This document shows positions 8,447-26,408 of a stretch of 64,000 nt of DNA, piece by piece. Both the position numbers and the translations under genes were made by a program. Position 1 is the first letter of the stretch; each line of letters begins with the position of its first letter. Source of the DNA: Microbacterium sp. USTB-Y (GTDB taxonomy: Bacteria; Actinomycetota; Actinomycetes; Actinomycetales; Microbacteriaceae); the NCBI RefSeq assembly GCF_023703415.1, contig NZ_JAGMTU010000003.1, forward strand, positions 248,001 to 312,000, in the 5' to 3' direction. The notes under the pieces were generated by a model, which had not been told where the DNA came from, searched no databases, and saw only the letters and a list, made by a program, of their open reading frames with translations.

Positions 8447-10078
8447 TCAGACGTTCACGTCCCCCACGAGGTTCACGCGGATCCCCATGCCGTCCAGCAT
8501 CGCGGCCTTCGCCACGAGCGCCTTGTCCGCGGTCTCCGCATCGGGCGCGTAGACGAGCTGGGCGTGGTTGGCCTTGTGGCGCGCCATGAACTGGTCGCGG
8601 CTCTGGCCGTGCAGCACGACGTGCGCGATCGGCCACTCGGGGTTCGTGGCATCCTTGCGGCGCTGCGTCTCCTCGGCGGGGAGCTCGACGACGGTCCCGC
8701 GGAACACGTCCGCCTGCAGCACGCCGTCGGCGATGAAGATGCGGGAGAGCACGACCTCCCCCGGCTTCGAGACGCCGTTGATCGTGGCCCCTCCCGCCGG
8801 GAAGAACACGTGCCCCTGCCGCCAGCCCTCGGCCTTGTCCCAGCCGCCCAGGTGCGAGGCGGGGACGGATCCGGAGATCTCGTAGACCCAGACGAAGTCG
8901 TCGCCGAACTGCTCGCCCCAGCGCACGTCGTGCAGCGTGTTGTCGGGGACGAGGCCCATCGCCCGCCACACCCGGTCGGTCACGAGCGCGTCGACCGCGA
9001 CGCCCTCGTCCGCCTCGTTGAAGTGCGGGAACGCCCGCCCCTCGTGCAGGATCCGGGATCCGTCGCGCGAGGTCACCGGTGGGCGCTCGGTGGAGTTCAG
9101 GATCCCCTCGGCGAGATCCGAGGCGGGCACGAGGTCCTTCAGTCCCTGCTGGTACTGGATCCCGACCGCATCGAGGCCGAAGTCGTCGGCGATGCGGAGG
9201 GCGGCGACGTACATCTTGAGCTGCCATTGCACCTGCTCGCGGGTGAGTTCGGTGGCCCCGTCCTCGCTGTAGCGGAAGGTCATGCCGTGCGTGATGAGCC
9301 AGTCGTAGGCGGCGTCCGCCTCGGCGTCCGTCACGGTCAGCATCTCGGCGTAGAGCGCCGACTGCGAGAGGCGCTCCTTGTAGATGCCGGTGCGGTTGAG
9401 CAGCTCGTCGTCGAAGATCGCGTTGTACATGCCCATGCAGCCCTCGTCGAAGACGCCGATGATGGCCTTGTCGGCGCGCAGCTGCGCGGCGAGCGCCTCG
9501 CCGAGCTGCTTCTCGGGCGAGTCCGGGAGCTCCGGCAGGGCGCGCACGTGCGAGGCGTCGTGCGTGATGCGCCCGGTCTCGGTCCACTCCGCAAGACCCT
9601 CGCGGAACCAGGGGTCGGTGAAGTCCACCGACCAGATGGTGGAGTACGGCTTGCCCATCTTCGTGAGGCCCGCGTTGAGCCCGAGCAGCCCGACGAGGCC
9701 GGGCCAGTCCGGTGCGAAGTTGGCGGTGGTGAGGATCGGACCGCGGTGCGTGCGCAGCCCCGCCAGCACGTGGTGGGAGTACTGCCAGTTGGCGGTGGCG
9801 ACGATCAGCGGCGCGTCCTCGGGGATGCGCGTGAACACCTCCATCCCCATGCGCTGGCTCGAGATGTAGCCGTGGCCGGTGGCCGGATCCACACCGAACG
9901 GGCGGATCACCGTCCAGCCCAGGTCCTCGAAGGCGGCGGTGACCGCGGCCTCGGTCGCGGCCTGCACCGGCCAGCCCGCGACGTTGGCCGACTCGCGGAG
10001 GTCGCCGGAGGTGATCAGGTAGGCGGTCTTCGGCGCGGATGCGGGGCGCTCGATCGGCGCGGGGAGGGCGTAGCTCAT
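8447..10078 (-). CDS. L-fucose isomerase-like protein, proposed D-arabinose isomerase
   Basis: A 543-residue cytoplasmic protein resembling the L-fucose/L-arabinose isomerase family (COG2407-like), with an N-terminal Rossmann-like region, VFDEGCMGMYNAIFDDE in the middle (acidic residues suited to binding a divalent metal) and a C-terminal beta-rich domain. L-fucose isomerases also act on D-arabinose, which shares the relevant stereochemistry. As the last gene of an operon with GH116 and an FGGY kinase, behind a LacI operator, I infer it converts D-arabinose to D-ribulose. ATG at 10078 follows GGAGA by five bases. Substrate is inference; the family call is moderately strong. Confidence 0.72.
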   Translation of the reverse strand: MSYALPAPIERPASAPKTAYLITSGDLRESANVAGWPVQAATEAAVTAAFEDLGWTVIRPFGVDPATGHGYISSQRMGMEVFTRIPEDAPLIVATANWQYSHHVLAGLRTHRGPILTTANFAPDWPGLVGLLGLNAGLTKMGKPYSTIWSVDFTDPWFREGLAEWTETGRITHDASHVRALPELPDSPEKQLGEALAAQLRADKAIIGVFDEGCMGMYNAIFDDELLNRTGIYKERLSQSALYAEMLTVTDAEADAAYDWLITHGMTFRYSEDGATELTREQVQWQLKMYVAALRIADDFGLDAVGIQYQQGLKDLVPASDLAEGILNSTERPPVTSRDGSRILHEGRAFPHFNEADEGVAVDALVTDRVWRAMGLVPDNTLHDVRWGEQFGDDFVWVYEISGSVPASHLGGWDKAEGWRQGHVFFPAGGATINGVSKPGEVVLSRIFIADGVLQADVFRGTVVELPAEETQRRKDATNPEWPIAHVVLHGQSRDQFMARHKANHAQLVYAPDAETADKALVAKAAMLDGMGIRVNLVGDVNV

Positions 10079-10123
10079 GGGATTCTCCGGTTGCTGGATG
10101 GTGGTCACGTCGGTGGTAGCCGC

Positions 10124-12691
10124 TCAGGCGGGCGGCGGGAAGGTACGGGGTTCGCCCGGGACGAGTCGCACGTCGTGCGCGAGCAGGGCGCCGTGCAGCC
10201 GCAGCTCGGCGAGGTCGAGCGCTCCGCCGTCGAGCCGCAGGGTCAGCGCGCCCCCGTCGATCTCGGCGCATCCCCAGCCGGTGCCCGTGGTGAAGAGGAA
10301 CCGCACGGGGGCGCCCTCGGCGAACGCGCCGGCCGCGGGCGCGAACGACAGCGTGCGGGCCGGGGCGTCCCACTGCGCGCCGCTCGCCCCCAGCAGCAGC
10401 GCCCAGGACGCGAGCGAGCGCGCGTAGTGGTTGCCGCACTCGATCTCGTTCCAGGGGTTGCGATGCGTCCCGTCGTAGCGCGAACGCAGCGCGCGCTCGA
10501 CGCGCAGCGCGTCGTCGACGCGCCCCGCGTAGAGCAGCGTGGCCGCGACCTGGTGCTCGACTCCCGTCCACACCTCGTCGGAGTAGACGAACGGGATGGC
10601 GGGACGCCCGCCGCGCGGCCAGGAGGCGAGCAGCAGGCCGCCCTCGTCGTTCAGCGCGTAGACCCGCTGAGTGCTCTCGTGCGCAGAGAGGTCGGCCCGG
10701 TGGTTGTGCGCGACGATCGCGGCGAGCGCGCTGTCGAGGTGCGCGGGCGGCAGCAGCGGGCCGAGTCCGTTCAGATACGCATGGAACTGACCGAGCAGCT
10801 GGTCCGAGAGCACCCCGTCGCCGTACTGGTAGCGGTGCGCGTCGACGTCGTCGATCACCTGCCGGTAGTACTCGCCGGTGAAGAGCACGTCGTCCATCGC
10901 CGCGGCCACGTGATCGGCTCTCGCGGACCAGTTCCTGGCCCGCTCCGTCTCCCCCAGGTGGGCGGCCAGGCGCGCTCCGGCGCGGAGGGCGGCGAGGTAC
11001 ACGCCGTTGGCGAGCGGATCGATCCCGTGGAACTCGATGTCGTAGGTGTTGTGCAGCTCTCCGTCCAGCAGCCCGTCGCCGTCGCGGTCCCACTCGCGGG
11101 TCGCGTGCTCGAGGGTCCGCACCGCCGCGGGCCAGAGCTCGCGCAGGAACGCGTCGTCGCCCGAGAACCGCCATTCGCGATGCAGCCGGAGGAAGGTGCC
11201 GAGCTGCCCGTCGACGGCGGGCCCGATGAACCACGGAGCGGATCCGAACACGCGGTTGCCGCGGAACCTCTGCGCACCGTCCGCATCGGTCTCGAGCAGG
11301 AACTCCGGGCGGCGCGCGCTGCGCTCGAGCGCCGGGAACAGCCAGGCGACGGTCTGCGCGTAGGACCAGACGTGCGTGCAGGTCCCCTCGCACGACCCGC
11401 CGTGGTCGAAGGACCCCTCCCAAGCCGCGAACACCGGCCCCTCGCCCAGGGCGGGGTTCGGCGACTCCAGCACGAAGCAGGTCGTGGACCGCACCGCGGC
11501 GATGTTCGCGCCGATCGCGTCGGCGAGCACCGGGTCGAGCGTGCCGCCGTAGAGCGCCTCGACGAAGGCGTCCGTCGCGGCCTCGAGCGCGGGGAGCTCC
11601 CGGTGCAGGTGCGTCGCCGCGGACCAGGCATCGGGCCAGAGCGCGGCGTAGTGGTTGCGCACGACAGGCGGCAGGGACGGATCCACGGGGGCGTCGTCGA
11701 AGACGATGTGCCCGTGCCAGCCGCGCCGCCGGTTCGGGAACGACCAGCTCAGCACGAACTCGAAGTCGCGCGTCTCGCCGGGGACGAGCGTGTGGACGAT
11801 GCCGAGGGATCCGGTGCGCAGCCGCGGCAGCTTCGCGAGCATCTGCTCCTCGGTGAGCGGCGGGGCATCCGGATCCGCGTCCTTCTCGGCGAACAGCCCG
11901 CGCGGGCGGTCTTCGAGCGTGAGCCGCGACTCGGCGTCGAGCAGCCCGTCGGCGGTGAGGTCGCTCCAGAACATCCGGGCGCCGTCGGGCCAGTAACTCG
12001 TGACCCATTGCGGCTTGACCGTGGTGGAGGCGTCGGCGGTGGTGAGGGCGAGGGTGCCGTAACCGGGGTCGTCACCGGGGAGGTCGATGCCGAAGTCGAG
12101 GCCGCGCACCTCCCCGTCATCGCGCCAGCGGACGCTCTGCGTGCCGCGCATGCCCCAGGGGGCGTCGGGGCCCGGTTCGCCGCGGCCCGCCGTGTGCGAG
12201 ACGCTGCCGGCGACCGTGACCGCGACGGGCGCGTCGCCGGGATTCGAAACCCGGTAGCGCAGCACGGCCGCGGGGATGCCCGAGGCGTCGGCGTCGAGCG
12301 GGACGAGCGGCGTGAAGGCGTGCAGCGTCACGTCGACGGGCAGCGTGCGGTCGGCGAAGTCGATGTCGACCACGGGGTACTCCCCGTGCATCGTCGCCGC
12401 CTCGAGGCGAGGGAGGCCGACGAGATCGTCGAACGAGAAGCCGGCGTCGAGGTCGCGTCGCCCCGTCATGCGCGCCTCGAGAACGCGGGTGACGGGCTCG
12501 GCCCCCTCCGGTGCCGCGTGGATCGCGAAGAACGTGCGCGGATTGCGGCGATCCTTGTCGGGGTGGTTCTCGAGCTCCCAGTCGCGCAGTTCGCCGCGCG
12601 CTCCGAGCGAGACGTTGCCCGTGCCGATGCCGCCGAGGGGGAACGCCGCGCGCTCCGCGGTGTGCGGGACGGGACGGGCCCGGCGCGTCAT
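10124..12691 (-). CDS. GH116 glycoside hydrolase, proposed exo-beta-D-arabinofuranosidase
   Basis: An 855-residue GH116 enzyme of GBA2-like architecture: an N-terminal beta-sandwich starting PLGGIGTGNVSLG, then an (alpha/alpha)6 domain. The nucleophile Glu545 lies in GELHNTYD after DRDGDGLLD, and the acid/base Asp705 in YSDEVWTGVEHQ, both as in the family. NPWNEIECGNHYARS follows. No signal peptide, so it acts in the cytoplasm on imported oligosaccharides. GH116 includes beta-glucosidases, beta-xylosidases and beta-D-arabinofuranosidases; the neighbouring GH172 and GH183 families argue for the last. The start overlaps the kinase stop by four bases (ATGA), showing co-translation. Confidence 0.88.
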   Translation of the reverse strand: MTRRARPVPHTAERAAFPLGGIGTGNVSLGARGELRDWELENHPDKDRRNPRTFFAIHAAPEGAEPVTRVLEARMTGRRDLDAGFSFDDLVGLPRLEAATMHGEYPVVDIDFADRTLPVDVTLHAFTPLVPLDADASGIPAAVLRYRVSNPGDAPVAVTVAGSVSHTAGRGEPGPDAPWGMRGTQSVRWRDDGEVRGLDFGIDLPGDDPGYGTLALTTADASTTVKPQWVTSYWPDGARMFWSDLTADGLLDAESRLTLEDRPRGLFAEKDADPDAPPLTEEQMLAKLPRLRTGSLGIVHTLVPGETRDFEFVLSWSFPNRRRGWHGHIVFDDAPVDPSLPPVVRNHYAALWPDAWSAATHLHRELPALEAATDAFVEALYGGTLDPVLADAIGANIAAVRSTTCFVLESPNPALGEGPVFAAWEGSFDHGGSCEGTCTHVWSYAQTVAWLFPALERSARRPEFLLETDADGAQRFRGNRVFGSAPWFIGPAVDGQLGTFLRLHREWRFSGDDAFLRELWPAAVRTLEHATREWDRDGDGLLDGELHNTYDIEFHGIDPLANGVYLAALRAGARLAAHLGETERARNWSARADHVAAAMDDVLFTGEYYRQVIDDVDAHRYQYGDGVLSDQLLGQFHAYLNGLGPLLPPAHLDSALAAIVAHNHRADLSAHESTQRVYALNDEGGLLLASWPRGGRPAIPFVYSDEVWTGVEHQVAATLLYAGRVDDALRVERALRSRYDGTHRNPWNEIECGNHYARSLASWALLLGASGAQWDAPARTLSFAPAAGAFAEGAPVRFLFTTGTGWGCAEIDGGALTLRLDGGALDLAELRLHGALLAHDVRLVPGEPRTFPPPA

Positions 12692-14196
12692 GCCGGCACC
12701 TCCCGCTCGTCATCGGCGCGCTGCTGCTCCGCGAGTTCGTGCACGACCTCCGCGGTGCCCGCGTACAGCCGCAGGTAGCGGTCGAAGAGCGCGTCGTACG
12801 CGGAGGCCAGGGCGGGATCGGGAGCGATCGTCGTCACGACCGGGTTCCAGTCCGCGATCGCCGGTGCGGGGTCGGTCACGGCGCCCGCGGCGAGGAAGGC
12901 CGCGCCGTAGCTCGCGCCGATCGTGATCTGCGGCACTTCCTGCGCGAGCCCGGTCGCATCGGACACGATCTGCAGCCAGAGCCGCCCCTGGGTGCCTCCG
13001 CCGACCGCGACGATCCGGCGGATGTCCGCGCCCGCGTCGCGCATCGTCTGCACGTTGTGCCGCACGCCGAGCGCGGTCGCCTCCAGCGCCGCCCGGTACA
13101 GGTCGCCCCGGCCGTGGTCCAGGGTGAGACCCGCGATCACGCCGCGCGCATCCGGATCCTGGATCGGCGTTCGCTCGCCCGCGAAGTACGGCAGCATCAC
13201 GAGCCCGCGCGCGCCCGGGCCGGACGCCTCGGCCTCGGCGAGCAGTTCGGGGTAGTCGGATCCCGTCAGGTCCTTCAGCCAGGCGGTGAGCGCGCCCGAG
13301 GTCGAGAGGCCGCCGGCGAGGTTGCGGGTGCCTGCTAACGCGCCCGCCGTCGTCCACATGGAGGGCGTCCGCAGCGTCTCCTCCCCCGTGGCGACGAGGA
13401 ACATCGTGGTGCCGTACATGAGCATGAGGTCGCCGACGCCGTGCGCACCGACGCTGACCGCTTCGGTCCAGGCGTCGATCGTGCCGGCGATGACCGGTGT
13501 GCCCTCGGGGATCCCGGTGACGAGGGCCGCCTCGGCGGTCACCAGGCCCGCGACATCCCCCGCCCAGAGCAGCGCGGGCTGCTCGAGCGGCGCCGCATAG
13601 CGCTGCCACCATTCGTCGTGCCAGCGCTCGTGCTCGATGTCGTACAGGGGCGAGACCTGGCTGGCGGACTGATGGTCCAGCACGTAGGCGCCGGTGAGCC
13701 GGTGCGCGAGCCACGAGGCCGGCATGAAGAGCCGCCGGGCCCGCTCCCACGCTCCCGGATCCTCGTCATGGATCCAGAGGATCTTCGGGCCTGCGGCCTG
13801 CGAGGTGAGGACGGATCCGCCCACGCGCGTGATCTCGGCGACGCCCAGGTCGGCCGTCATCCGTGCGATCTGCTCCCCGGCGCGCGTGTCGACGCCGTAG
13901 AGGACGGCCGGGCGGACCGGCTCACCCGCCGCGTCGACCAGCAGGATGCACGGCCCCATGCCGCTCACCCCGACCGCGGCGATCTCGGCGTCCGGCACGG
14001 CGGCGCGCAGCTCCCGGGCGAGGGAGACGAACTCGTCCCACCAGATCCCGCCGTCCATCTCGACCCAGCCGGTGCGCGGGCGGCTCACCTCGTGCGTCCG
14101 GGTCGCCTGGGCGAGGATCGCGCCGTCGGCATCCACGAGGACGCCCTTGCTGCTGGAGGTGCCGATGTCGACACCGATGGTGCACCGCACGCGCAT
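12688..14196 (-). CDS. FGGY-family carbohydrate kinase, proposed D-ribulokinase
   Basis: A 502-residue sugar kinase of the FGGY family. The N-terminal ATPase lobe starts TIGVDIGTSSSKGVLVD, then GVSGMGPCILLVD; GTIDAWTEAVSVG and the adenosine-site VGGGTQGRLWLQ mark the second lobe. Xylulokinase is the nearest common annotation. Being the first gene of an operon with a D-arabinose-isomerase-like enzyme, it is inferred to phosphorylate D-ribulose to D-ribulose 5-phosphate, feeding the pentose phosphate pathway. Its promoter carries a LacI operator in the spacer. The kinase call is firm, the substrate inferred. Confidence 0.87.
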   Translation of the reverse strand: MRVRCTIGVDIGTSSSKGVLVDADGAILAQATRTHEVSRPRTGWVEMDGGIWWDEFVSLARELRAAVPDAEIAAVGVSGMGPCILLVDAAGEPVRPAVLYGVDTRAGEQIARMTADLGVAEITRVGGSVLTSQAAGPKILWIHDEDPGAWERARRLFMPASWLAHRLTGAYVLDHQSASQVSPLYDIEHERWHDEWWQRYAAPLEQPALLWAGDVAGLVTAEAALVTGIPEGTPVIAGTIDAWTEAVSVGAHGVGDLMLMYGTTMFLVATGEETLRTPSMWTTAGALAGTRNLAGGLSTSGALTAWLKDLTGSDYPELLAEAEASGPGARGLVMLPYFAGERTPIQDPDARGVIAGLTLDHGRGDLYRAALEATALGVRHNVQTMRDAGADIRRIVAVGGGTQGRLWLQIVSDATGLAQEVPQITIGASYGAAFLAAGAVTDPAPAIADWNPVVTTIAPDPALASAYDALFDRYLRLYAGTAEVVHELAEQQRADDEREVPA

Positions 14197-14231: not shown

Positions 14232-14260
14232 ACACTACGCGAAATCGATTTCAAGCGCAA
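14232..14260 (-). promoter_or_regulatory. LacI-regulated promoter of kinase-GH116-isomerase operon
   Basis: Read on the minus strand: -35 TTGCGC, a 17-base spacer and -10 TAGTGT. The spacer holds the perfect palindrome GAAATCGATTTC (14241-14252), so a bound repressor would block polymerase. The same operator recurs at 26264-26275 and 26397-26408, with a variant at 15828-15839. Confidence 0.8.
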
Positions 14261-14379: not shown

Positions 14380-14796
14380 ATGGACATGACCGAACCGCAG
14401 GTGTGGACCCTGATCGGACTCTTCGCCGCGATCATGCTCGGCGGCATGACGCTCATGACGACGCTTCTCACGAAGGCGATCAACGGACGGCTCGAAGCCC
14501 TCGAGGGCCGGTTCGACGGCAGATTTGATGCCCTCGTGGGCCGGTTCGACGGCAGATTCGAGGCCCTCGAGGGCCGGTTCGACGGCAGATTCGAGACCAT
14601 CGACGGCAAGTTCGAGGGCCTCCGCGGCGAGATGAACGCCCGCTTCGAAGCCATGGACGCCCGCTTCGAGGCGATGGACGGCAGGATCACCGGACTCCGT
14701 GCCGAGATGAGCGCCCGCTTCGACGCGGTGGACGTCAAGGTCTCGGCGCTCGACAAGGATGTGGCGGCGCTGGCCGACCGCCTCTGGCACTCCTGA
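14380..14796 (+). CDS. Small membrane-anchored coiled-coil protein, paralogue B
   Basis: A 138-residue paralogue of the 6918-7181 protein, starting MDMTEPQVWTLIG and with the same N-terminal membrane segment. The longer cytoplasmic helix is built from 11-residue units such as GRFDGRFEALE, then MNARFEAMDARFEAMDGR, predicting an extended coiled coil. RBS GGAGG is one base before the ATG in the paralogue-conserved arrangement GGAGGCATG; GGAGG-C spacing is short, so initiation at the second ATG (14386) is possible. Converges on the lacI-type gene. Function unknown. Confidence 0.75.
   Translation: MDMTEPQVWTLIGLFAAIMLGGMTLMTTLLTKAINGRLEALEGRFDGRFDALVGRFDGRFEALEGRFDGRFETIDGKFEGLRGEMNARFEAMDARFEAMDGRITGLRAEMSARFDAVDVKVSALDKDVAALADRLWHS
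14506..14604 (+). repeat. 33-bp in-frame tandem repeat within coiled-coil gene
   Basis: Three copies of a 33-base unit starting GGCCGGTTCGACGGCAGATT at 14506, 14539 and 14572; the last diverges at its end. Each adds one 11-residue turn of coiled coil, accounting for part of the length difference from the paralogue at 6918. Confidence 0.85.
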
Positions 14797-14803: not shown

Positions 14804-15784
14804 TCAGCGCGAGACGGTCGCCGCCTGGATCTCGTTGCGCAGCACGACGGTGCGGGCGGGCTGATCGTCGCCGCCGATCCGGTCGAGGAGCATCCGGGCG
14901 GCGGTCACGCCCATGTGGCGCGCGGGCAGGCGTACGACGGTGACCACGCTCGGCGACAGCGTCGTGAACGGCAGCGAGCCGACGACCGCGACGCCCATCG
15001 CGGGCGGGGTGAGACCGCGCTCGGTGAGCACCTGGATCGCGCCGACGCCGATGAGGTTGTTGCCGGCGACGACGGCGTCGGGCGGCTCGGGCAACGCCAG
15101 CAGCTCCGCCATCGTCTCGCGCCCGCCGTCCACCCGGAACGACGAGAACCGCAGCAGCTCGGGATCCGCGGGGAGGCCGTGCGCCTTCAGCGCGGCACGC
15201 CAGCCGTCGGCGCGCTCGACCGCGGTCTCGATGTGCTCCGGGCCCGCGATGTGCGCGATGCGCGTGTATCCGGCCTCGATCAGCTGCTCGGTCGCGCTGC
15301 GGCCGGCGTCCCGGTTCGCCATGACGACCCCGTCGATGTCGTAGCCCGTGCTGCGATCGACCGCGACCACCGGCCGACCCGTCTCCAGCAGCTCGTCGAG
15401 AGAGGTGTGGTCGGACGCCGCGGCGAGGATCACGCCGGACATGTGCTCGGCGATCGCGATGCGCAGGTAGGTCTGCTCCTTCTCCACCTGGGCGTCGGAG
15501 TTGCAGAGCACGACCGAATAGCCGGCCTCGGAGGCGACATCCTCGACACCGCGCGCCATCTCGGTGAAGTACGGGTTCTCGATGTCGGGGATGACGAGCG
15601 CGATCACCTCGGAGCTCTGCCGCCGCAGCGTCCGGGCCGTGCGATTCGGGAAGAACTTCAGCTGGGCGGCCGCCTGACGCACCGCCGCGACCTTCTCATC
15701 CGAGACGCCCGCGCCGTTGAACACGCGCGACACCGTCGCAGGAGACACGCCGGCGAGACGCGCTACGTCGTAGATGGTCGCCAT
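14804..15784 (-). CDS. LacI family repressor, proposed regulator of the D-arabinan regulon
   Basis: A 326-residue LacI/GalR regulator: residues 1-25 are the helix-turn-helix (TIYDVARLAGVSPATVSRVFN), followed by the hinge and a periplasmic-binding-like core (VIALVIPDIENPYFTEMARG, GVVMANRDAGRSATEQLIEAG). It is divergent from GH172, with an operator between them, so it likely represses itself, GH172 and the two other units with the same operator. The inducer is probably D-arabinose, D-ribulose or a short D-arabinan oligosaccharide (inference). Confidence 0.9.
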   Translation of the reverse strand: MATIYDVARLAGVSPATVSRVFNGAGVSDEKVAAVRQAAAQLKFFPNRTARTLRRQSSEVIALVIPDIENPYFTEMARGVEDVASEAGYSVVLCNSDAQVEKEQTYLRIAIAEHMSGVILAAASDHTSLDELLETGRPVVAVDRSTGYDIDGVVMANRDAGRSATEQLIEAGYTRIAHIAGPEHIETAVERADGWRAALKAHGLPADPELLRFSSFRVDGGRETMAELLALPEPPDAVVAGNNLIGVGAIQVLTERGLTPPAMGVAVVGSLPFTTLSPSVVTVVRLPARHMGVTAARMLLDRIGGDDQPARTVVLRNEIQAATVSR

Positions 15785-15814: not shown

Positions 15815-15864
15815 ACATTACCGTGATGAAATCGATTGCAACAGTGAGTGGGAATCGGTAGGGT
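15815..15864. promoter_or_regulatory. Divergent promoters with LacI operator, lacI-type gene/GH172
   Basis: The operator variant GAAATCGATTGC is at 15828-15839. The hexamer TTGCAA (15836-15841), its own complement, serves as -35 in both directions: rightward with a 17-base spacer to TAGGGT (15859-15864) for GH172, leftward with a 15-base spacer to TAATGT (15820-15815) for the repressor gene. Repressor binding would cover both -35 boxes. Confidence 0.72.
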
Positions 15865-15932: not shown

Positions 15933-17060
15933 ATGACTCTTACCGACCTGTCGTCCCTGTCCGCCCTGAGGACCGTGCAGACCCGGTCCATCTCCCCGGA
16001 GAACTTCGACGGCGCCGTCGGCGGCGGAGCCAGGGCGACCGAGGGCACCGGGGCCGACTGCGCGCGCGACCTCGGGCCCGGATGGAAGATCTCCCCGAGC
16101 GTCGACATCGCCGCGGGCGCGACGTTCGACCTCGCCTCGATCGAGGGGGCGGGCCGGATCACCCACATCTGGATCACCACGCACACCGACAACTGGCGCA
16201 CGCTCATCCTGCGCGCCTACTGGGACGGCGCCGACGAACCCGCCGTCGAGGTGCCCTACGGCGACTTCTTCTGCAACGGCTGGGGCGTGTTCGCGCAGGT
16301 GAACTCGCAGGTGATCGCCGCGAACCCGCACGGCGGCTTCAACTCCTACTGGCCGATGCCGTTCCGCGACGGCGCACGCCTCACGATCGAGAACACCTCG
16401 GCGGTCGACGTGCGCGTCTACTACCAGGTGACCTACGAGATCGGCGGCGACTACTCCGCCGACGGGTACTTCCACGCGCAGTGGCGCCGCTCGAACCCGC
16501 TCGAGGAGCTCGTGCCGCACACGATCCTCGAGGGCGTCGAGGGCCGGGGGCAGTACGTCGGCACCTACATCGCGTGGGGCGTGAACTCCAACGGCTGGTG
16601 GGGCGAGGGCGAGATCAAGTTCTACCTCGACGACGACACCGACCACCCCACGATCTGCGGCACGGGAACCGAGGACTACTTCGGCGGCGCGTGGAACTTC
16701 GACATCCCGGGTCAGGGGTACACGACGTTCTCGACGCCCTATCTCGGCATGCCCCAGGTGATCCGTCCCGACGGGCTCTACCTCTCGCAACAGCGCTTCG
16801 GCATGTACCGCTGGCACCTCGCGGATCCGATCCACTTCTCCACCGGGATCCCGAAGGTCGACATCCAGGCGCTCGGGTGGCGCAGCGGCTGGCGCTACCT
16901 GCCCCTGCGCGACGACATCGCCTCCACCGCGATGTTCTACCTGGACCGGCCGACGGCCCGCCGCCCGAAGGCGCCCAGCGCAGACGACATGGAGGTGCAC
17001 CTAGGAACGGCCCCCGTGCCGGACCTGGGATCCACTCCCCCGCGCGAACCGCGCAGCTGA
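15933..17060 (+). CDS. GH172 (DUF2961) glycoside hydrolase, proposed exo-alpha-D-arabinofuranosidase
   Basis: A 375-residue DUF2961/GH172 protein. Diagnostic segments are GRITHIWITTHT, the pair VPYGDFFCNGWG and GTGTEDYFGGAWNFDIPGQG, where Glu247 in TEDYF corresponds to a conserved catalytic acidic residue. Characterised GH172 enzymes include difructose-dianhydride hydrolases/synthases and exo-acting alpha-D-arabinofuranosidases. No signal peptide, so cytoplasmic. Divergent from the LacI regulator with an operator overlapping its -35 box. ATG at 15933 has only a weak, distant GAGG; an upstream start is possible but would extend into the promoter. Family firm, substrate inferred from context. 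Confidence 0.86.
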   Translation: MTLTDLSSLSALRTVQTRSISPENFDGAVGGGARATEGTGADCARDLGPGWKISPSVDIAAGATFDLASIEGAGRITHIWITTHTDNWRTLILRAYWDGADEPAVEVPYGDFFCNGWGVFAQVNSQVIAANPHGGFNSYWPMPFRDGARLTIENTSAVDVRVYYQVTYEIGGDYSADGYFHAQWRRSNPLEELVPHTILEGVEGRGQYVGTYIAWGVNSNGWWGEGEIKFYLDDDTDHPTICGTGTEDYFGGAWNFDIPGQGYTTFSTPYLGMPQVIRPDGLYLSQQRFGMYRWHLADPIHFSTGIPKVDIQALGWRSGWRYLPLRDDIASTAMFYLDRPTARRPKAPSADDMEVHLGTAPVPDLGSTPPREPRS

Positions 17061-17716: not shown

Positions 17717-17732
17717 GGAAGACTCGAACGCC

Positions 17733-19183: not shown

Positions 19184-19264
19184 GCCTCACCTCCCCACCC
19201 CGTCCCGGCAATGCGTCGCTGATGAGCACTGCCGAGTCCCCGGGTCCGCCGCCCCTCCGCGCCG

Positions 19265-19311: not shown

Positions 19312-19333
19312 TGTGTCGCGAGGGCGCAGATCC

Positions 19334-20011
19334 TTACTGGGCCGGCGGCATCAGGACGGAGTCGATGAGGTACACGGTCGCGTTCGCGGTGTGGACGCCG
19401 CCGCAGATCACGTTCGCGTCGTTGACCTTGAGGCTGTCGCCCGATCCGGTCACCGTCACCTCGCCGCCCTCGACGGTCTTGTGGGTCCCGACGATGTCCT
19501 TCGGCGAGATCTGACCGGCGACGACGTGGTAGGTCAGGATCTTGCTGAGCGTGTCGGCCCCGGCGTCGGTCTTCAGCGTGTCGATGGTGGCGGGGTCGAT
19601 CTTCTTGAACGCGTCATCGACGGGTGCGAACACGGTGAACTCGCTTCCGTTGAGCGTGTCGACCAGGTTCACCTTCGGGTTGAGCTTGCCGGAGACCGCC
19701 GCGACCAGCGTGGTCAGCAGCGGGTTGTTGCTGGCGGCCGTCGCCACCGGGTCCTGAGCCATCCCGGCGACCGAACCCGCGCCGGAGGGGACCTGCTGCG
19801 CGTACGCGGCGCACCCGGGGCCGACCAGATCGGCCGCCGGATCCATCGTCTGCGACGGGGACGCCTCCGGCGAGCTGACGGGCGGGGCCGACGACGAGCC
19901 GGACGACGAGCCGGACGACGACGAGCATCCCGTGAGGGCGAGCGCCGTGGCGGCCAGCAGGCCGGCGGTGACGAGCGAGACCTTGGTGTGCAGGCGAGCG
20001 GTGGATCGCAT
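19334..20011 (-). CDS. Fasciclin-domain lipoprotein (MPT83/MPT70-like)
   Basis: A 225-residue surface lipoprotein. Signal peptide with lipobox LTGC (Cys at about 29), a Ser/Pro-rich tether, then one FAS1 domain ([65 protein letters not shown]). FAS1 domains mediate adhesion or ligand binding. In mycobacteria the homologues MPT70/MPT83 are the main SigK targets, matching the gene order here. ATG at 20011 follows AAGGAG. Transcribed from a SigK-like promoter at 20064-20090. Confidence 0.9.
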
Positions 20012-20063
20012 GATCTTCTCCTTTGACTGGTGCATCGCGACCGTTCATCGGCCGACACGATGC

Positions 20064-20090
20064 GTTCGGAGCCGTGCACCCAGCGGATTG
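20064..20090 (-). promoter_or_regulatory. Putative SigK promoter of fasciclin gene
   Basis: On the minus strand: CAATCC (20090-20085), 15 bases, CCGAAC (20069-20064). The divergent oxidoreductase gene has CCATCC-15-CCGAAC. Both resemble the mycobacterial SigK consensus (CCATCC/CCGAAT), which supports a shared SigK regulon. Confidence 0.65.
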
Positions 20091-20106
20091 GATCCGGATC
20101 GATGCA

Positions 20107-20133
20107 CCATCCGTTCGGCCGCCCGCACCGAAC
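20107..20133 (+). promoter_or_regulatory. Putative SigK promoter of molybdopterin oxidoreductase gene
   Basis: CCATCC (20107-20112), 15 bases, CCGAAC (20128-20133), ending eight bases before the ATG at 20141, so the transcript should be leaderless or nearly so. Confidence 0.68.
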
Positions 20134-20140
20134 CCAGGAC

Positions 20141-21703
20141 ATGGAACACAAGACAGGAAGTCACGGCGGGCGCGGCTGGGCGGCGCTCGCCGGCGTCGTC
20201 AGCGGCGCGGTGTTCGTCGCCGTCGCCGAGATCACGGCCTTCGCCGCCGCCCGCGACGCGAGCCCGCTGCTGGCGGCCGGCTCGTTCGTCATCGACATCG
20301 TGCCGCAGTGGGCCAAGGAGCTCGCGATCGACCTCTTCGGCGCGAACGACAAGCTCTTCCTCCTGCTGACCCTCGGCGTCGGAGTGCTGCTGGCCGCCGC
20401 GGCGGCCGGCCTCCTCGAGCGCCGCCGCCGCCTCGCCGGCGTCGCGGTGTTCGCCGTCGCCGGTGCCGCCGGGCTGGCGGCGGCCCTGACGCGCACGGGG
20501 GCGACGCCGTTGTCCGCCCTGCCCTCGCTCGCCGGCACGATCGCGGGCTGCGTCTTCCTGACGATGTCGATCGCGGCGCTGCGCCGATGGCGCGCGCCCG
20601 GGGCCGCCGGCGACGGGGCGTCGGGGCCGGACCGCCGGCGCTTCCTCCTCCTGACCGCGGTGGGCGGGGTCACCGCGATCGTCGTGGGCACGGGAGCCCG
20701 GATCGGGACGATGGCGACGACCTCCGTCGCCTCCGTGCGCAAGGCGCTCCGCCTACCAGAGCCGCTGTCCCGGATCACCGTGCCCGCCGGCGCCGAGCTC
20801 GACATCCCGGGGCTCTCCCCGCTGTTCACCCCGAACGCGGACTTCTACCGCGTCGACACCGCCCTGACGGTGCCGTCCCTGGCCCCGGCGGACTGGCGGC
20901 TGACGGTCGACGGCATGGTCGGCGAGAAGGTGGAGCTGAGCTTCGACGAGCTGCTGCGGATGGGGCTGCGGGAGTACGCCGTGACGCTGACCTGCGTGTC
21001 GAACCAGGTCGGCGGCGACCTCGTCGGCACCGCACGGTGGCTGGGCGTCCCCGTCCGCGAGGTGCTCGCCCGCGCCAAGCCCGAGCAGGGCGCCGACATG
21101 GTGCTCTCCCGCAGCGTCGACGGCTTCACCGCGAGCACGCCGCTGGACGCGCTCACGGATCCGGGCAGGGATGCGATCCTCGCCGTCGCGATGAACGGCG
21201 AGCCCCTGCCGCCGGAGCACGGCTTCCCGGTGCGGATGGTCGTGCCGGGGCTCTACGGCTATGTCTCGGCGACGAAGTGGCTCACCCGGATGACGGTCAC
21301 GACGTTCGAGAAGGACCAGGCCTACTGGACGCCTCGCGGGTACAGCGCACAGGCGCCGATCAAGCTGTCGAGCCGGATCGACACGCCGCGCATCGACAAG
21401 GAGATCCCTCCGGGAGCCGCCCGGATCGCCGGGGTCGCCTGGGCGCAGACGGTGGGGATCGCGCGGGTCGAGGTGCAGATCGACGGCGGGGCCTGGCAGA
21501 CCGCGACGCTGTCCACCCCGGTCAGCGCCGACACCTGGGTGCAGTGGTTCCTGGACTGGAACGCGACCAGCGGCAGCCACACCCTCGTCGTCCGCGCCAC
21601 CGATCGGAACGGCCGGATGCAGGAGCAGGAGCGCACCCCGATCGCGCCGAACGGATCGACCGGCTGGCAGTCCACCGTCGTCCGCGTGGGCACCGCGGGC
21701 TGA
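20141..21703 (+). CDS. Membrane-anchored molybdopterin-dependent oxidoreductase (sulfite oxidase family)
   Basis: A 520-residue fusion. Residues about 10-165 form a four- to five-helix membrane domain, followed by an RRRFLLLTAVGG segment that looks like a twin-arginine export signal, then a sulfite-oxidase-type molybdopterin domain (FYRVDTAL, GLREYAVTLTCVSNQVGGDLVG with the Mo-ligand Cys285, KWLTRMTVTTF) and a C-terminal Mo-co dimerisation/Ig-like domain. Likely a YedY/MsrP-like enzyme facing outside, perhaps repairing oxidised proteins or reducing sulfoxides (inference). Divergent from the fasciclin gene, probably SigK-controlled. Confidence 0.88.
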   Translation: MEHKTGSHGGRGWAALAGVVSGAVFVAVAEITAFAAARDASPLLAAGSFVIDIVPQWAKELAIDLFGANDKLFLLLTLGVGVLLAAAAAGLLERRRRLAGVAVFAVAGAAGLAAALTRTGATPLSALPSLAGTIAGCVFLTMSIAALRRWRAPGAAGDGASGPDRRRFLLLTAVGGVTAIVVGTGARIGTMATTSVASVRKALRLPEPLSRITVPAGAELDIPGLSPLFTPNADFYRVDTALTVPSLAPADWRLTVDGMVGEKVELSFDELLRMGLREYAVTLTCVSNQVGGDLVGTARWLGVPVREVLARAKPEQGADMVLSRSVDGFTASTPLDALTDPGRDAILAVAMNGEPLPPEHGFPVRMVVPGLYGYVSATKWLTRMTVTTFEKDQAYWTPRGYSAQAPIKLSSRIDTPRIDKEIPPGAARIAGVAWAQTVGIARVEVQIDGGAWQTATLSTPVSADTWVQWFLDWNATSGSHTLVVRATDRNGRMQEQERTPIAPNGSTGWQSTVVRVGTAG

Positions 21704-21724
21704 GCGGCGCGACCGGTCGGAGCC

Positions 21725-22828
21725 TCAGACGAGCCCCTGGACCCGGAACTGCTCCACGTGGTAGACGCTGTTGTTCCCGGTGTTCCACTGGCTCACGCCG
21801 AGGTGCAGATCCGACAGGGTGGAGCCGGGGATGATGTACCCGCCGTAGAGCTGCGCGACGTGACTGGCGTCCTCCGCGCCCCACTCGCACCCCGTGAGCA
21901 GCGTGGTCTTCGCGGCCGTGTAGAGGTTGTCGGTCGGGGTGTTCAGCACCATCGCGTCGATCCGGTAGGCGCCGGCGTTGAACCAGGTGAGGATCCACTT
22001 CCCGCCGAGGGGCCGCAGGCACATCTCGCCGAACTTCCCCGGCAGCACCTCGGTCGCCTGGTTGCCCCACCCCCAGGCGCCGTTCGCATAGCCCCAGGGC
22101 TGGTAGGCCGACAGCGCGGTCATGCTGTTCTGCGGCACCCGGTAGAGCACGATGCCCTTGTCGCGCTGGAAGCCGGTGCCGTAGATGTACACGTAGCCGT
22201 CGTTGCCCTGTCCCCACGTGATGCACTGGAAGCGGCCGCCGGCCATGTCCGCGGGGAACTTGAGGCCGGTGTGCTGCCAGGTCGCACCGGAGTCGTCGGA
22301 CTGCCACAGCTCGGTCCAGCGCACCGCCCCGAAAGTGGGCCCGTTCACGATCGCGTGCAGGTACATGCGGGTTCCGATCGTGATCACATCCGAGGGGATC
22401 ACGGTCTCGTAATAGGCGTCGTGCGGGTAGTACCAGAGCTGGGGGGCGGTGACCTGCGTGTTCGCGCCCGCGCCTGCCGCCCCGCTGAACACGACGCCGG
22501 TGGCGAGGTCGCTCGTCGACGAGTACAGCGCGACCGGCGAGCGCCAGTCGGTGCCGCCCACGGCGTCGGCCCAGGTGTCCCCGAAGACGAAGAGCAGACG
22601 GCCGTCGGGCGTGCGCGCGGGGATCCCGAGATCGGTGGCCCCCACTCCGTACTGCACTCCGGCCTGGGTGCCGGCGAGCACCTTGAGCCTCGTGACGGTG
22701 AGCCCGGCCGCGGCCGCGGGGCCGGCCCCCAGTGCGGAGACGCCGAGCGCGGCTCCCGCGGCGAGGGCTCCCTGCAGGAGACCCCGGCGGGTCAGTGCGT
22801 GGACGGGACGGGTCGGTCGTTCGGACAT
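21725..22828 (-). CDS. Secreted GH183 (DUF4185) protein, proposed endo-D-arabinanase
   Basis: A 367-residue exported protein: a twin-arginine signal (LTRRGLLQGALAAGAALGVSA) and then a five-bladed-propeller-type DUF4185 domain, with GRLLFVFGDTWAD, SDDSGATWQHTGL, FQCITWGQGNDGYVYIYGTGF and WNTGNNSVYHVEQF. DUF4185 proteins are now classed as GH183, endo-acting D-arabinanases active on mycobacterial arabinogalactan and lipoarabinomannan. It is the only exported enzyme of the locus and the last gene of the LacI-controlled ABC operon, 29 bases after the second permease, consistent with releasing oligosaccharides for that importer. Confidence 0.83.
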   Translation of the reverse strand: MSERPTRPVHALTRRGLLQGALAAGAALGVSALGAGPAAAAGLTVTRLKVLAGTQAGVQYGVGATDLGIPARTPDGRLLFVFGDTWADAVGGTDWRSPVALYSSTSDLATGVVFSGAAGAGANTQVTAPQLWYYPHDAYYETVIPSDVITIGTRMYLHAIVNGPTFGAVRWTELWQSDDSGATWQHTGLKFPADMAGGRFQCITWGQGNDGYVYIYGTGFQRDKGIVLYRVPQNSMTALSAYQPWGYANGAWGWGNQATEVLPGKFGEMCLRPLGGKWILTWFNAGAYRIDAMVLNTPTDNLYTAAKTTLLTGCEWGAEDASHVAQLYGGYIIPGSTLSDLHLGVSQWNTGNNSVYHVEQFRVQGLV

Positions 22829-22857
22829 GGCATTCTCCCCTTCGAGAACACGGCCGC

Positions 22858-23769
22858 CTATTTGAGGCCGGCCATCTTGATGTTGCCGATGATCTGGCGC
22901 TGGAAGATGAGGAACAGGATCACGACCGGAGCCGCCGCCAGCACGGATCCGGCCATCAGCAGCCCGAGCTCGCTCGAGCCGCGTCCGGTGCGGAACTCCG
23001 CCAGGTACTGCTGCAGCACGAACTTCTCCGGCGACGTGATCGTCATGATCGGCCAGACGTAGGAGTTCCAGTAGGCGAGGAACGCCGTGATCCCCATCAC
23101 CACGAACGGCGGCTTCGACAGCGGCAGGAAGATGCGCACGAAGATCCCGAAGCGGCCGCAGCCGTCCAGCATCGCGGCCTCCTCGAGGCTGGCCGGGATG
23201 TTCAGGTAGAACTGCCGGATGAAGAAGACCGACGCCGCGCTTGCAGCCCCCGGGATCACCAGCACGGCGAGCGTGTCCAGCATCGCGAGCTTCGTCACCA
23301 CGATGAAGCTCGTGAGCAGGATCGTCATGCCCGGGATGAACATCGTCGTGATGACGGCGACCCACAGCGTGCGCTGGAACCGGAACTGCAACCGCGCGAA
23401 CGCGTAGGCGGCGAGCGAGTTCACCGTGAGGCTCAGCACCGTGAACAGGATGGCGCCGAGGAACGTCCAGCCCAGGGTGCGCAGGAACGTCGCGTCACCG
23501 AGGATCTTGGTGTAGTTGTCCCAGTGCCACACCTCGGGGAAGAACTGGAACGGCGTGCTCAGCACCTCGGTCTTCGCCTTGAAGCCGGCGATCACCATCC
23601 AGGCGAGAGGGAACAGCGCCGCGACCAGGAACAGCAGGCCGACGAACGCCTTGCCGACGAGGATCGCCCAGCCCGTGACGCCGTGCGGCGCCGTGAACCG
23701 GCGGTGGTCCTTTCCGGCCAGGACGATCCGGGTGGTCTCCAGGGCGGTGGTCGGGGAGGTCGCACTCAT
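22858..23769 (-). CDS. Carbohydrate ABC transporter permease (MalG type)
   Basis: A 303-residue inner-membrane permease with six predicted helices and the EAA loop (ASLEEAAMLDGCGRFGIFVRIFLPLSKP) that contacts the ATPase. The N-terminal 40 residues are cytoplasmic. Starts within the stop of the preceding permease (TGATG). Forms the translocation channel with the MalF-type partner. No ATPase gene is present in this operon; such importers often share one encoded elsewhere. Confidence 0.9.
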   Translation of the reverse strand: MSATSPTTALETTRIVLAGKDHRRFTAPHGVTGWAILVGKAFVGLLFLVAALFPLAWMVIAGFKAKTEVLSTPFQFFPEVWHWDNYTKILGDATFLRTLGWTFLGAILFTVLSLTVNSLAAYAFARLQFRFQRTLWVAVITTMFIPGMTILLTSFIVVTKLAMLDTLAVLVIPGAASAASVFFIRQFYLNIPASLEEAAMLDGCGRFGIFVRIFLPLSKPPFVVMGITAFLAYWNSYVWPIMTITSPEKFVLQQYLAEFRTGRGSSELGLLMAGSVLAAAPVVILFLIFQRQIIGNIKMAGLK

Positions 23770-24695
23770 CAGTCGACGAGCCTTTCGGAGTTGATGAACT
23801 TGAAGACGAGCGCCGAGACGGATCCCAGCACGACGAAGAGCAGCAGGGCCGCGGCGATCGAATAGCCCACGTTCACGTCGTTGCGGAAGTGGTTGAAGAT
23901 GAACAGGTTCGGCAGCGTGGTCGAGTCCAGCGGTCCGCCCTGCGTCATGACGAGGGGCAGCTCGAACTGCTGGATCGCGGCGACGAAGCCGGTGATCAGC
24001 AGGTAGAGGAACACGTTCTTCATCTGGGGCATCGTGATGTAGAAGGTCTTCTGCCACCAGCCGGCGCCCTCCATCGCCGCGGCCTCGTAGTACTCCGTCG
24101 GGATGTCCACCATGGCGGCGACCATGATGAGCGAGGTGATACCCATGCCGAGCCACACCGCGGGCACCGCCACGGAGAGCAGCGCCCACGCGGGATCCCC
24201 GATCCACGCCACGGGGTCGATGTGGAACACGGCGAGCACGGCGTTCAGGATGCCGCCGTCGTAGGTGTAGATCAGCACGAACACGATCGACGCGATCACG
24301 GACGAGATGATCGTCGGGATGTAGATGCTGACCTTGAGCACGGTCGCGAACCGCCGGGAGACGCTCACGACGAGGCTCGCGAACAGAAACGCCAGCACGA
24401 GCATCGGCGGCACCGTCATCAGGACGAACAGGAATCCGCGGCCGATCGTCGCGACGAACAGCGGATCCGTCAGCACGTCGACGTAGTTCTTCCCGCCGAC
24501 GAACTGCGGGTCCTTGTAGAAGCTCCAGTCCTGGAACGAGAGGAACGCCGCGTACACCGCCGGCCAGGCGACGAAGATCCCGAGCAGGATCACCACGGGG
24601 GCGAGCAGCAGGTAGGCGAGCTTCGTGTCGCGGTACCGGTGCCGGTCCGCTCTGCGCTTGGCTGCGCGCCGGTCGTCGATCGCTTGCGTGGTCAT
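23769..24695 (-). CDS. Carbohydrate ABC transporter permease (MalF type)
   Basis: A 308-residue permease with six helices (first LAYLLLAPVVILLGIFVAWPAVYA) and the EAA-loop segment YYEAAAMEGAGWWQKTFYITMPQM. ATG at 24695 has GGAGA six bases upstream. Second gene of the binding protein-permease-permease-GH183 operon. Proposed to import D-arabinan oligosaccharides or D-arabinose. Confidence 0.9.
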   Translation of the reverse strand: MTTQAIDDRRAAKRRADRHRYRDTKLAYLLLAPVVILLGIFVAWPAVYAAFLSFQDWSFYKDPQFVGGKNYVDVLTDPLFVATIGRGFLFVLMTVPPMLVLAFLFASLVVSVSRRFATVLKVSIYIPTIISSVIASIVFVLIYTYDGGILNAVLAVFHIDPVAWIGDPAWALLSVAVPAVWLGMGITSLIMVAAMVDIPTEYYEAAAMEGAGWWQKTFYITMPQMKNVFLYLLITGFVAAIQQFELPLVMTQGGPLDSTTLPNLFIFNHFRNDVNVGYSIAAALLLFVVLGSVSALVFKFINSERLVD

Positions 24696-24778: not shown

Positions 24779-26149
24779 TCACTTCTTCGGAGCCTTGCTC
24801 GGCAGATCCTGCGACTGGATCACCTTCTGGATCGCGGCGTCCGCGGTCTTGATGGCGTCGTCCGGCGAAGCCGCGCCCTTCATGACCGACTCCATCGCGG
24901 TGCCGACCGCGAGCGAGACGTCCCACGGGTAGGTCGGCTCGGGGATCGCGTCGGGCGCGATGTCGTTCGTGATCACGCTCGACCACGGCGCCTTCGCGGC
25001 GGCCTCGTCCTTGGCGACGGCCTCCTGCACCGATTTGCGCACGGGGACCTTGGTGAACTGCGTGTTCACGAAGAACGGCACGAGGTTCTGCGGATCACCG
25101 GCGAGCGACCACTCCAGGAACTTCCCGGCGGCGTCGGCGTGCTTGCTCTTCGCGTCGATGACCCACTTGAAGTTGCCGAGCGTGGTGGCGGTGCGGCCGT
25201 CGGCGTTGGAGGCGTTCGGGAAGGCGCCGATGCCCGTCTTGGTGAGCAGGTCCGGGTAGTCGGATCCGATCTCCGACATCATCCAGGAGCCGGAGACCTT
25301 GAAGGCGACCTTCTTCTGGCCGAAGTCCTTGCCCTCGACGTAGGCGGCGAGCGCCTGCTTGGGCATGTATCCCTTGTCCCACAGCTCCTTGTACTTCGAC
25401 ATCAGGTCGCGGTACGCGGCGTTGTCGATGTCCGGGGACTTCCAGTCGTCGGTGAGCGCCGTGTGCCCGGCGAAGTTGTACTGCTGGCCGACGGTCGACC
25501 AGGCGAACGTGATGGCGTCGGACGCGGGCGAGATGCAGTACTGCCCCTGGGCGAGCGTCGGCTGGATCTTGGCGCAGTCGGCGAGCAGGTCGTCCCAGGT
25601 CGCGGGGCCCTTGTCCGTGTCCACACCGGCCTTGGAGAGCATGTCCTTGTTCCAGAACAGCACGGTCTGGGCCTCCTGCAGGAGGGGGTAGGCGTAGTAG
25701 GTGCCGCCGATCTCGGACACCGACTTCGCCGAGTCGATGATCTCGTCCAGCTTGGAGGTGTCGACGACCTTGCCGAGGTCGTACAGCTGACCGGCGTTGA
25801 CCGCGTCCTGGATGCTGCCGGAGTGGGTGTAGATGTCGGGCGCCTTGCCCGCGGCCTGGGCCGCCTTCATCTTCTGGTCCCACGCGTCGGCGGGGATCTC
25901 GGTGTCCTTGACGACGATCTTGTCCTGGGAGGCGTTGAACTTCTTGACGATGTCCTTGTACCAGGCGTTCTCGGGCGGGGTGAACGTGCGGTGCCAGAAC
26001 TCGATGGTGGTCTTGCCGCTGGAGTCGCCTCCGTCCCCGGCGGCCTGCCCCGGAGTGCTCGAGCCGCAGCCCGCGAGCAGTCCAACCGCCGTGATGCCGC
26101 CGAGCGCGGCCATCACGACCCGGCGCGTGCGCTGTGTGTCCGTCTTCAT
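24779..26149 (-). CDS. Sugar ABC transporter substrate-binding lipoprotein
   Basis: A 456-residue extracytoplasmic binding protein. Lipobox LAGC near residue 28 follows a basic, hydrophobic signal. The cluster-B sugar-binding fold opens TTIEFWHRTFTPPENAWYKDIVKKF and includes GSIQDAVNAGQLYDLG and VSGSWMMSEIGSDYP. ATG at 26149 follows GAGGAGG. First gene of the LacI-controlled operon. Ligand not readable; D-arabinose oligosaccharides are inferred from the neighbouring GH183, GH172 and GH116 genes. Confidence 0.9.
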   Translation of the reverse strand: MKTDTQRTRRVVMAALGGITAVGLLAGCGSSTPGQAAGDGGDSSGKTTIEFWHRTFTPPENAWYKDIVKKFNASQDKIVVKDTEIPADAWDQKMKAAQAAGKAPDIYTHSGSIQDAVNAGQLYDLGKVVDTSKLDEIIDSAKSVSEIGGTYYAYPLLQEAQTVLFWNKDMLSKAGVDTDKGPATWDDLLADCAKIQPTLAQGQYCISPASDAITFAWSTVGQQYNFAGHTALTDDWKSPDIDNAAYRDLMSKYKELWDKGYMPKQALAAYVEGKDFGQKKVAFKVSGSWMMSEIGSDYPDLLTKTGIGAFPNASNADGRTATTLGNFKWVIDAKSKHADAAGKFLEWSLAGDPQNLVPFFVNTQFTKVPVRKSVQEAVAKDEAAAKAPWSSVITNDIAPDAIPEPTYPWDVSLAVGTAMESVMKGAASPDDAIKTADAAIQKVIQSQDLPSKAPKK

Positions 26150-26254: not shown

Positions 26255-26283
26255 AGGGTAGGCGAAATCGATTTCAGATACAA
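26255..26283 (-). promoter_or_regulatory. LacI-regulated promoter of ABC transporter-GH183 operon
   Basis: On the minus strand: -35 TTGTAT, 17-base spacer, -10 TACCCT; the spacer contains GAAATCGATTTC (26264-26275), the same arrangement as the kinase operon promoter at 14232-14260. It lies in the 341-base gap 26150-26490, which holds this promoter, a second operator and no gene. Confidence 0.8.
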
Positions 26284-26396
26284 GACACTCGTGGATGATC
26301 CCGGGCGCGCCCCCTACTCGGGTGTCGTGGTGGCGCTCTACGGCACACAGGGAAACAGGTCTCGATGCCCGCAGCGCCTCAGGGCACATGAGGCAG

Positions 26397-26408
26397 GAAA
26401 TCGATTTC
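26397..26408. promoter_or_regulatory. Second, upstream LacI operator
   Basis: A further perfect GAAATCGATTTC, 133 bases (centre to centre) from the promoter operator. With no gene starting here in the other direction, it probably supports repression by DNA looping between two repressor dimers. Confidence 0.7.

Follow-up and report, generated by a model that had tools for sequence, protein, structure and literature searches.

A probable D-arabinan utilisation locus in Microbacterium, orthologous to a published system, and its predicted LacI regulon

To our knowledge, D-arabinan is almost confined to mycobacteria and their relatives, and enzymes able to cleave it serve as tools for work on the mycobacterial wall. 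The closest described system is the D-arabinan locus MIAR_33170-33320 of Microbacterium arabinogalactanolyticum (Shimokawa et al. 2023, PMC10509167), the main text of which names the importer, the isomerase and the kinase and gives the pathway to D-ribulose 5-phosphate. According to the same text, the hydrolase and binding-protein genes of this species were induced by D-arabinose and by a mycobacterial wall extract. A preliminary description of the DNA examined here had regarded the transporter, the downstream catabolism and the whole circuit as less described; this claim of novelty was mostly wrong, because the main text of PMC10509167 already describes a locus of this type together with its catabolism and induction. 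The words LacI, regulator, repressor and promoter are absent from that main text. The present locus is a further, well-supported example of a system already in print, with a regulator and an operator that we did not find in the main text of PMC10509167.

We analysed a 64-kb stretch of Microbacterium DNA (the window), in which genes were called from codon-position GC content and from family searches. Nine genes and a common operator spanned positions 8447-26408 (Table 1), and every gene named in the preliminary description was present. The locus is not continuous, however, since a block of about 4.6 kb that is unrelated to sugar use interrupts it at 17139-21703. The kinase, GH116 and isomerase genes, in this order of transcription, lie on the minus strand, as does an operon of the binding-protein gene, two permease genes and the GH183 gene. 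The GH172 gene is oriented opposite to these minus-strand genes, and lacI stands separately. Three units with one operator had been proposed; the operator is indeed common to them, but there are four copies rather than one for each unit, two of them before the binding-protein gene. By Pfam, the ABC importer parts of the locus are the binding protein and the two permeases, and no importer ATPase gene was seen within the locus.

Table 1. Features of the locus in the window
Feature	Position	Strand	Evidence
Isomerase, L-fucose/D-arabinose isomerase fold (predicted D-arabinose isomerase)	8447..10108	-	PF02952, fold match
GH116 exo-beta-D-arabinofuranosidase (by similarity), no visible leader	10124..12691	-	similarity to ExoMA2 8IC6/8IC7
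FGGY sugar kinase (predicted D-ribulokinase)	12688..14196	-	PF00370, PF02782
Putative promoter, kinase-GH116-isomerase operon: TTGCGC, operator, TAGTGT, 17-base spacer	14232..14260	-	0/100 shuffles
Operator 1, perfect GAAATCGATTTC	14241..14252	.	pattern search
LacI-family repressor of the locus (putative)	14804..15784	-	PF00356, PF00532; matches operator presence in 55/55 loci
Operator 2, one base off (GAAATCGATTGC), between lacI and GH172	15828..15839	.	pattern search
GH172 exo-alpha-D-arabinofuranosidase (by similarity), no visible leader	15933..17060	+	similarity to ExoMA1 8IC8
GH183 (DUF4185) endo-D-arabinanase (predicted), twin-arginine leader	21725..22828	-	PF13810 241.9 bits
ABC sugar permease	22858..23769	-	PF00528; 85% to L116
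ABC sugar permease	23769..24695	-	PF00528; 83% to L116
Lipoprotein sugar-binding protein	24779..26149	-	PF13416, PF01547; lipobox LLAGC; 82% to L117
Putative promoter, binding protein-permease-GH183 operon: TTGTAT, operator, TACCCT, 17-base spacer	26255..26283	-	
Operator 3, perfect	26264..26275	.	pattern search
Operator 4, perfect, 133 bases upstream of operator 3 (start to start)	26397..26408	.	pattern search

The interrupting block, which lies between the GH172 and GH183 genes, encodes a DoxX-like protein, an RskA-type anti-sigma factor (PF10099), an ECF-type sigma factor, a fasciclin-like lipoprotein and a molybdopterin oxidoreductase (PF00174), the DoxX, sigma and fasciclin labels having been given by reading the sequence. 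Presumably it resembles the mycobacterial SigK-RskA-MPT70/83 group, and blocks of this type are present in two other genomes (G249 and G317) too. Two related small plus-strand genes (MDMTEPQVWTLIG...), at 14380-14796 and 6918-7181, flank the kinase-GH116-isomerase operon and encode a membrane segment and repeats. Their relatives lie beside the isomerase gene in locus L123 and beside the kinase gene in L132.

As a reference, we used a genome (G012) whose GH172 protein is identical to the PDB 8IC8 stretch at 368/368 residues and which was therefore taken as M. arabinogalactanolyticum. Placed by similarity scores rather than by trees, the window GH116 protein (domains PF12215 and PF04685) scored 1546 bits against ExoMA2, of GH116 subfamily 4, as compared to 88 for the next match, a Tlr0193 protein, and at most 77 for glucosidases. 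The GH172 protein (PF11175, DUF2961, 289.3 bits) scored 823 bits against ExoMA1, followed by the fructan-type alphaFFase1 with 114 bits. Alignment to characterised members, which had been proposed as a check, thus placed GH116 with ExoMA2 and not with glucosidases, and GH172 with ExoMA1 and not with the fructan-type enzyme. The two proteins are 78.7% (GH116) and 91.4% (GH172) identical to their G012 counterparts. The catalytic residues Glu431 and Asp557 and the recognition residues Arg483 and His446 of GH116 are all kept, and GH172 keeps Asn253 in place of the Gly of fructosidases. In the main text of PMC10509167, from which these residue numbers are taken, Asn253 blocks fructose, and Arg483 and His446 recognise arabinose.

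The GH183 protein is 82.2% identical to the protein of G012 that was assigned as EndoMA2 via gene order, not via its published sequence, and it keeps the equivalents of D33, D51, E243 and R198. Trp138, a stacking residue of EndoMA1, which was recognised through its extra C-terminal domain and the residue numbering, has no aligned partner in EndoMA2 or in the window protein. When GH183 was searched against the PDB at E values up to 10, five matches but no EndoMA1 entry were returned (none was 8HHV or 8IC1 by code), and the G012 locus was used to establish its orthology. Reading of the sequences revealed a twin-arginine leader on GH183 and a lipobox on the binding protein, whereas no leader was visible on GH116 or GH172; this agrees with the earlier view that GH183 is Tat-exported and that the other two lack export signals. 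Judged from these alignments, the three hydrolases are orthologues of the assayed M. arabinogalactanolyticum enzymes, and the window GH183 is predicted to have endo activity on arabinogalactan and lipoarabinomannan. Its gene is the sole DUF4185 match in the 4.11 Mb genome. In the near relatives G249 and G317 (loci L118 and L120), an EndoMA1-type GH183 gene directly follows the GH172 gene; the window genome has none, and has either lost it or never had one. Because this enzyme of its near relatives is missing, the strain may digest the polymer poorly.

A fucose/D-arabinose-isomerase-like enzyme had also been proposed, and this was borne out by fold and profile. In the isomerase, the only Pfam domain recognised was the C-terminal one (PF02952; 40.1 bits, over the cut-off). 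Its AF2 model (pLDDT 84) matched E. coli FucI (L-fucose isomerase, 1FUI) with a Z score of 36.0 and the Bacillus pallidus D-arabinose isomerase (3A9R) with 34.6, over 332-333 residues at 17-19% identity. A family-profile search gave 3A9R as the best match (E 1.5e-9), while a single-sequence phmmer search against the PDB gave none. The Mn-site presumably consists of Glu, Asp and His. The invariant Glu334 and His515 are paired with a Glu and a His in the 3A9R sequence, and the invariant Asp373, as read from the profile alignment, lies three columns off its presumed 3A9R partner. The kinase contains the FGGY domains, and its best PDB match was 3IFR; it fell below all NCBIfam equivalog cut-offs, the best being XylB (302.8 vs 380.25). 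D-Arabinose and D-ribulose are candidate substrates of isomerase and kinase, respectively, given the low identity of the former and the scores of the latter.

The operator GAAATCGATTTC is a perfect 12-base palindrome that occurs three times in the locus, in addition to the variant GAAATCGATTGC at a fourth place. When TGAAATCGATTTCR was searched with up to two mismatches, nine matches at five places were found in the window as compared to 0.14 expected; the match at 14318, with two mismatches, was left out of the operator count. A search of the 4.11 Mb genome for GAAATCGATTTC or GAAATCGATTGC gave four places, each within the locus, and a reversed control pattern gave none. These results indicate that the common operator of the preliminary description is real. 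In the putative kinase and binding-protein promoters, the operator lies inside the 17-base spacer between a TTG box and a TANNNT box. TANNNT was found exactly three bases after the operator at 37/37 first-gene sites (two rows are repeats), at 12/12 binding-protein sites and in 19/22 loci that hold the catabolic genes without polymer genes (stand-alone loci). A TTG box at exactly 17 bases was found at 23/37, 12/12 and 2/22 of these sites, respectively, and several operator sites without it have a TTG one base further out. A repressor bound at these operators would be expected to block RNA polymerase.

The candidate regulator is a LacI protein with a helix-turn-helix and a sugar-binding domain, whose best NCBIfam score (RbsR, 178.6 bits) is far under the RbsR cut-off of 531. 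We compared the presence of LacI, counted at 60% identity or more, with that of the operator, counted at no more than one mismatch upstream of the operon, in a sample of 55 loci, of which 25, including the window, had polymer genes and 30 did not. Both were present in 48 loci and both absent in seven, one of which has a 52% LacI relative; no locus was mixed. Four independent evolutionary contrasts were all concordant (p 0.125; too few for significance alone). The pattern suggests that LacI binds the operator sites. Beyond the genus, perfect sites lie before the operon, lacI or GH172 in Sanguibacter, Cryobacterium, Rhodoglobus, Promicromonospora, Agromyces, Flexivirga and several Streptomyces loci; the site of Actinotalea and some Streptomyces loci carries one mismatch, and loci L051 and L054 yielded none. 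The regulatory layer thus appears to be a dedicated and widely conserved regulon. We found no report of this regulator or operator in the literature, in which PMC10509167 was covered by its main text.

Among 366 genomes of the genus, an isomerase orthologue was present in 160 and a GH172 orthologue in 71. All 71 also have a DUF4185 match; of the 295 others, one (the incomplete genome G236) has a strong match and 17 have a weak one. The perfect operator occurred in 70/71 genomes with a GH172 orthologue, 53 of which have three copies, in 55 of the 89 that have the isomerase without a GH172 orthologue (34/89 lack it), and in 2/206 without an isomerase orthologue. In these 89 genomes, the isomerase is usually accompanied by LacI and kinase. 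In the first ten operator-bearing genomes without GH172 orthologue that were examined, the site precedes kinase and isomerase genes beside the same LacI (10/10), with no GH116, GH172 or GH183 match in the stretch read. Among 20 further stand-alone loci, some of them without operator, six had no LacI, one had a 52% relative and six had no kinase match. The existence of this core by itself suggests that the use of D-arabinose is a trait separable from that of D-arabinan.

On an isomerase tree, which is not a species tree and whose bootstrap had not settled, the label with or without polymer genes needs 17 changes, nine of them forced by well-supported branches. Shuffled labels needed 18.4-18.5 changes on average, and 149-160 of 500 shuffles were as low as 17. 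Separate isomerase lineages for loci with and without polymer genes were not supported, as 17 changes is close to the shuffled result. The polymer genes seem to have been repeatedly gained and lost around the isomerase core. Three stand-alone LacI-kinase-isomerase loci (L122, L125 and L127) adjoin genes for dihydrodipicolinate-synthase-family proteins, and a tripartite tricarboxylate-type receptor, a short-chain dehydrogenase or a PfkB kinase lies nearby in single cases. GH172 relatives of about 57-69% identity occur outside Streptomyces as well (L057, L058 and L062-L115; Paenibacillus, Chloroflexi, Nakamurella and others), mostly without other locus genes in the stretch compared.

The operators differ in quality according to their place. 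Polymer genes were found in 38 rows, which represent 36 distinct loci (L037/L170 and L043/L161 were taken as the same records), one of them, L046, from Sanguibacter. Among these loci, all 35 first-gene (kinase-side) operators found were perfect, that of L156 being present but beyond the 400-base limit of the count. All 12 binding-protein operators found were also perfect; 25/38 rows contained no binding-protein match of at least 55% identity within the stretch, and the site of L116 lay outside the stretch counted and was seen in L117. The lacI/GH172 operator, by comparison, has exactly one mismatch in 35/36 distinct loci. L172 is the exception: there, lacI does not adjoin GH172, and perfect copies accompany the same one-mismatch site. 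In four loci outside these counts (L048, L049, L050 and L059), the one-mismatch lacI/GH172 site was found in 4/4 and a perfect first-gene site in 3/3 evaluated. The altered base is C, G or T and never the palindromic A (letter counts include the two repeats), and it changed five times among 25 loci on the tree; in L046, another position is altered instead. The repeated replacement of this base without restoration suggests selection for a weaker lacI/GH172 site. An overlapping promoter box could also cause the mismatch. Upstream of 23 stand-alone lacI genes, we found a site with one mismatch in two cases, with two mismatches in eight and none in 13, and these half-decayed sites speak for lacI autoregulation too.

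A weak operator at GH172 is consistent with how mildly this gene is induced in the sister species according to the main text of PMC10509167, 3.5- and 6.0-fold as compared to more than 10-fold. However, operator quality alone as the determinant of induction strength was not borne out: that text gives strong induction for MIAR_33220 and MIAR_33230 (assigned via gene order), two GH183 genes that lie downstream of GH172, and no operator with two or fewer mismatches was found between GH172 and these genes. A broader idea, which we hold only tentatively and think may well be wrong, is that of a plug-in system: a core of LacI, kinase and isomerase, widespread in the genus, that senses D-arabinose and that the polymer module has joined and left many times, with a repressor that senses D-arabinose or D-ribulose and a GH172/lacI operator selected to be weak, so that GH172 leaks and primes the regulon. 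The leaked intracellular enzyme would turn the first imported oligosaccharides into inducer. If so, a little GH172 would always be made and would start the whole regulon.

We have little doubt that the locus is a D-arabinan utilisation locus orthologous to that of M. arabinogalactanolyticum, working via the steps proposed here and with a dedicated LacI. We observed its gene content, the orthology and key residues of its enzymes, the isomerase fold, the operators and the link of LacI to operator across genomes, and regard the D-arabinan reading as very likely. Secreted GH183 endo-D-arabinanase would cut mycobacterial arabinogalactan and lipoarabinomannan, and the ABC importer, with an ATPase presumably encoded elsewhere, would take up the oligosaccharides. 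GH172 and GH116 would release D-arabinose inside the cell, to be converted by isomerase and kinase to D-ribulose and then D-ribulose 5-phosphate. The dedicated LacI is predicted to bind GAAATCGATTTC, which in the kinase and transporter promoters immediately precedes the -10 box, and to let go on a monosaccharide-level signal, probably D-arabinose or D-ribulose. Since the stand-alone loci keep the same repressor and site without polymer enzymes, the signal should not depend on those enzymes, and the natural inducer is probably a monosaccharide or ketose. The induction by free D-arabinose given in the main text of PMC10509167 agrees with this. The genus comparison thus yields a simple prediction on the signal sensed by such bacteria. 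This makes the LacI a candidate sensor that responds to D-arabinose, the operator is a genome-wide handle for seeking further D-arabinan genes, and the strain may feed on mycobacterial wall arabinan, presumably in soil.

Other explanations were considered. A different furanoside or beta-glycoside polymer (fructan, L-arabinan or a beta-glucoside) as the target of the locus, with D-arabinan as an effect of family names, is in our judgement very improbable. GH116 and GH172 are multi-specific families, and of 56 loci (L060-L115) whose GH172 relative is about 57-62% identical, only 10 have a GH183 match in the stretch compared; yet the window GH116 and GH172 proteins resemble D-Araf-specific enzymes at the 78.7% and 91.4% identity given above, keep Asn253 and Arg483/His446, and GH172 orthologue and DUF4185 occur together in 71/71 genomes. 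We give hardly any credence to the idea that the genes remodel the bacterium's own wall, because the locus encodes an importer, an isomerase, a kinase and a sugar-type repressor, and we know of no D-arabinan in Microbacterium. What favours such a role is that GH183, according to the abstract of PMC10115798, is conserved in mycobacteria. It may remodel the wall there. The scavenging of D-arabino-oligosaccharides released by others, and of free D-arabinose, by a strain inefficient on the polymer seems unlikely but deserves more weight, and it overlaps with our main explanation, from which it differs by a weaker first step. The hydrolase-free core is common in the genus, near relatives keep the additional EndoMA1 type, and the sole DUF4185 match is of the EndoMA2 type, which leaves larger products than EndoMA1 (PMC10509167, main text). 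However, the EndoMA2 counterpart acts on both lipoarabinomannan and arabinogalactan in the same text, and the window GH183 gene has a leader and an open frame and sits in an operon predicted to be regulated.

As to regulation, GAAATCGATTTC might be the site of a broad catabolite-type LacI regulator, with the local LacI as a bystander. The palindrome is of the generic LacI type, it also occurs in Streptomyces loci with a LacI of just 51-54% identity, and G001 and G074 each have a single perfect site at a distance from the LacI-kinase-isomerase genes (L133 position 5436 and L131 position 5589), which possibly marks an extra regulon member. A broad regulator nevertheless seems improbable to us, given that the only four places in the window genome are all in the locus, that 204/206 genomes without isomerase orthologue lack the site, and that no site was present upstream of the operon in 7/7 sampled loci without this LacI. 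We therefore continue to favour the dedicated LacI.

The regulator has the same domain make-up as LacI-family pentose repressors (RbsR-like), but its own operator and gene set, and the isomerase shares the fold of 1FUI and 3A9R at only the low identity noted above. The D-arabinan PUL of Dysgonomonas gadei (Al-Jourani et al. 2023, PMC10115798) is a Bacteroidota system for mycobacterial D-arabinan that also has GH172 and GH183 (DUF4185); in its abstract and outline, we found no LacI circuit like that of the window. Like Gram-positive D-arabinan PULs, the window combines endo, exo-alpha and exo-beta enzymes with an importer, an isomerase and a kinase. Compared with M. arabinogalactanolyticum itself (G012), the window genome has one DUF4185 gene instead of four, and a sigma/anti-sigma block lies between GH172 and GH183. 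In both, the PUL contains GH116, kinase, isomerase, LacI, GH172, a GH183 at the EndoMA2 position and the ABC importer, with the same gene order, the same operators and protein identities of 77-92%.
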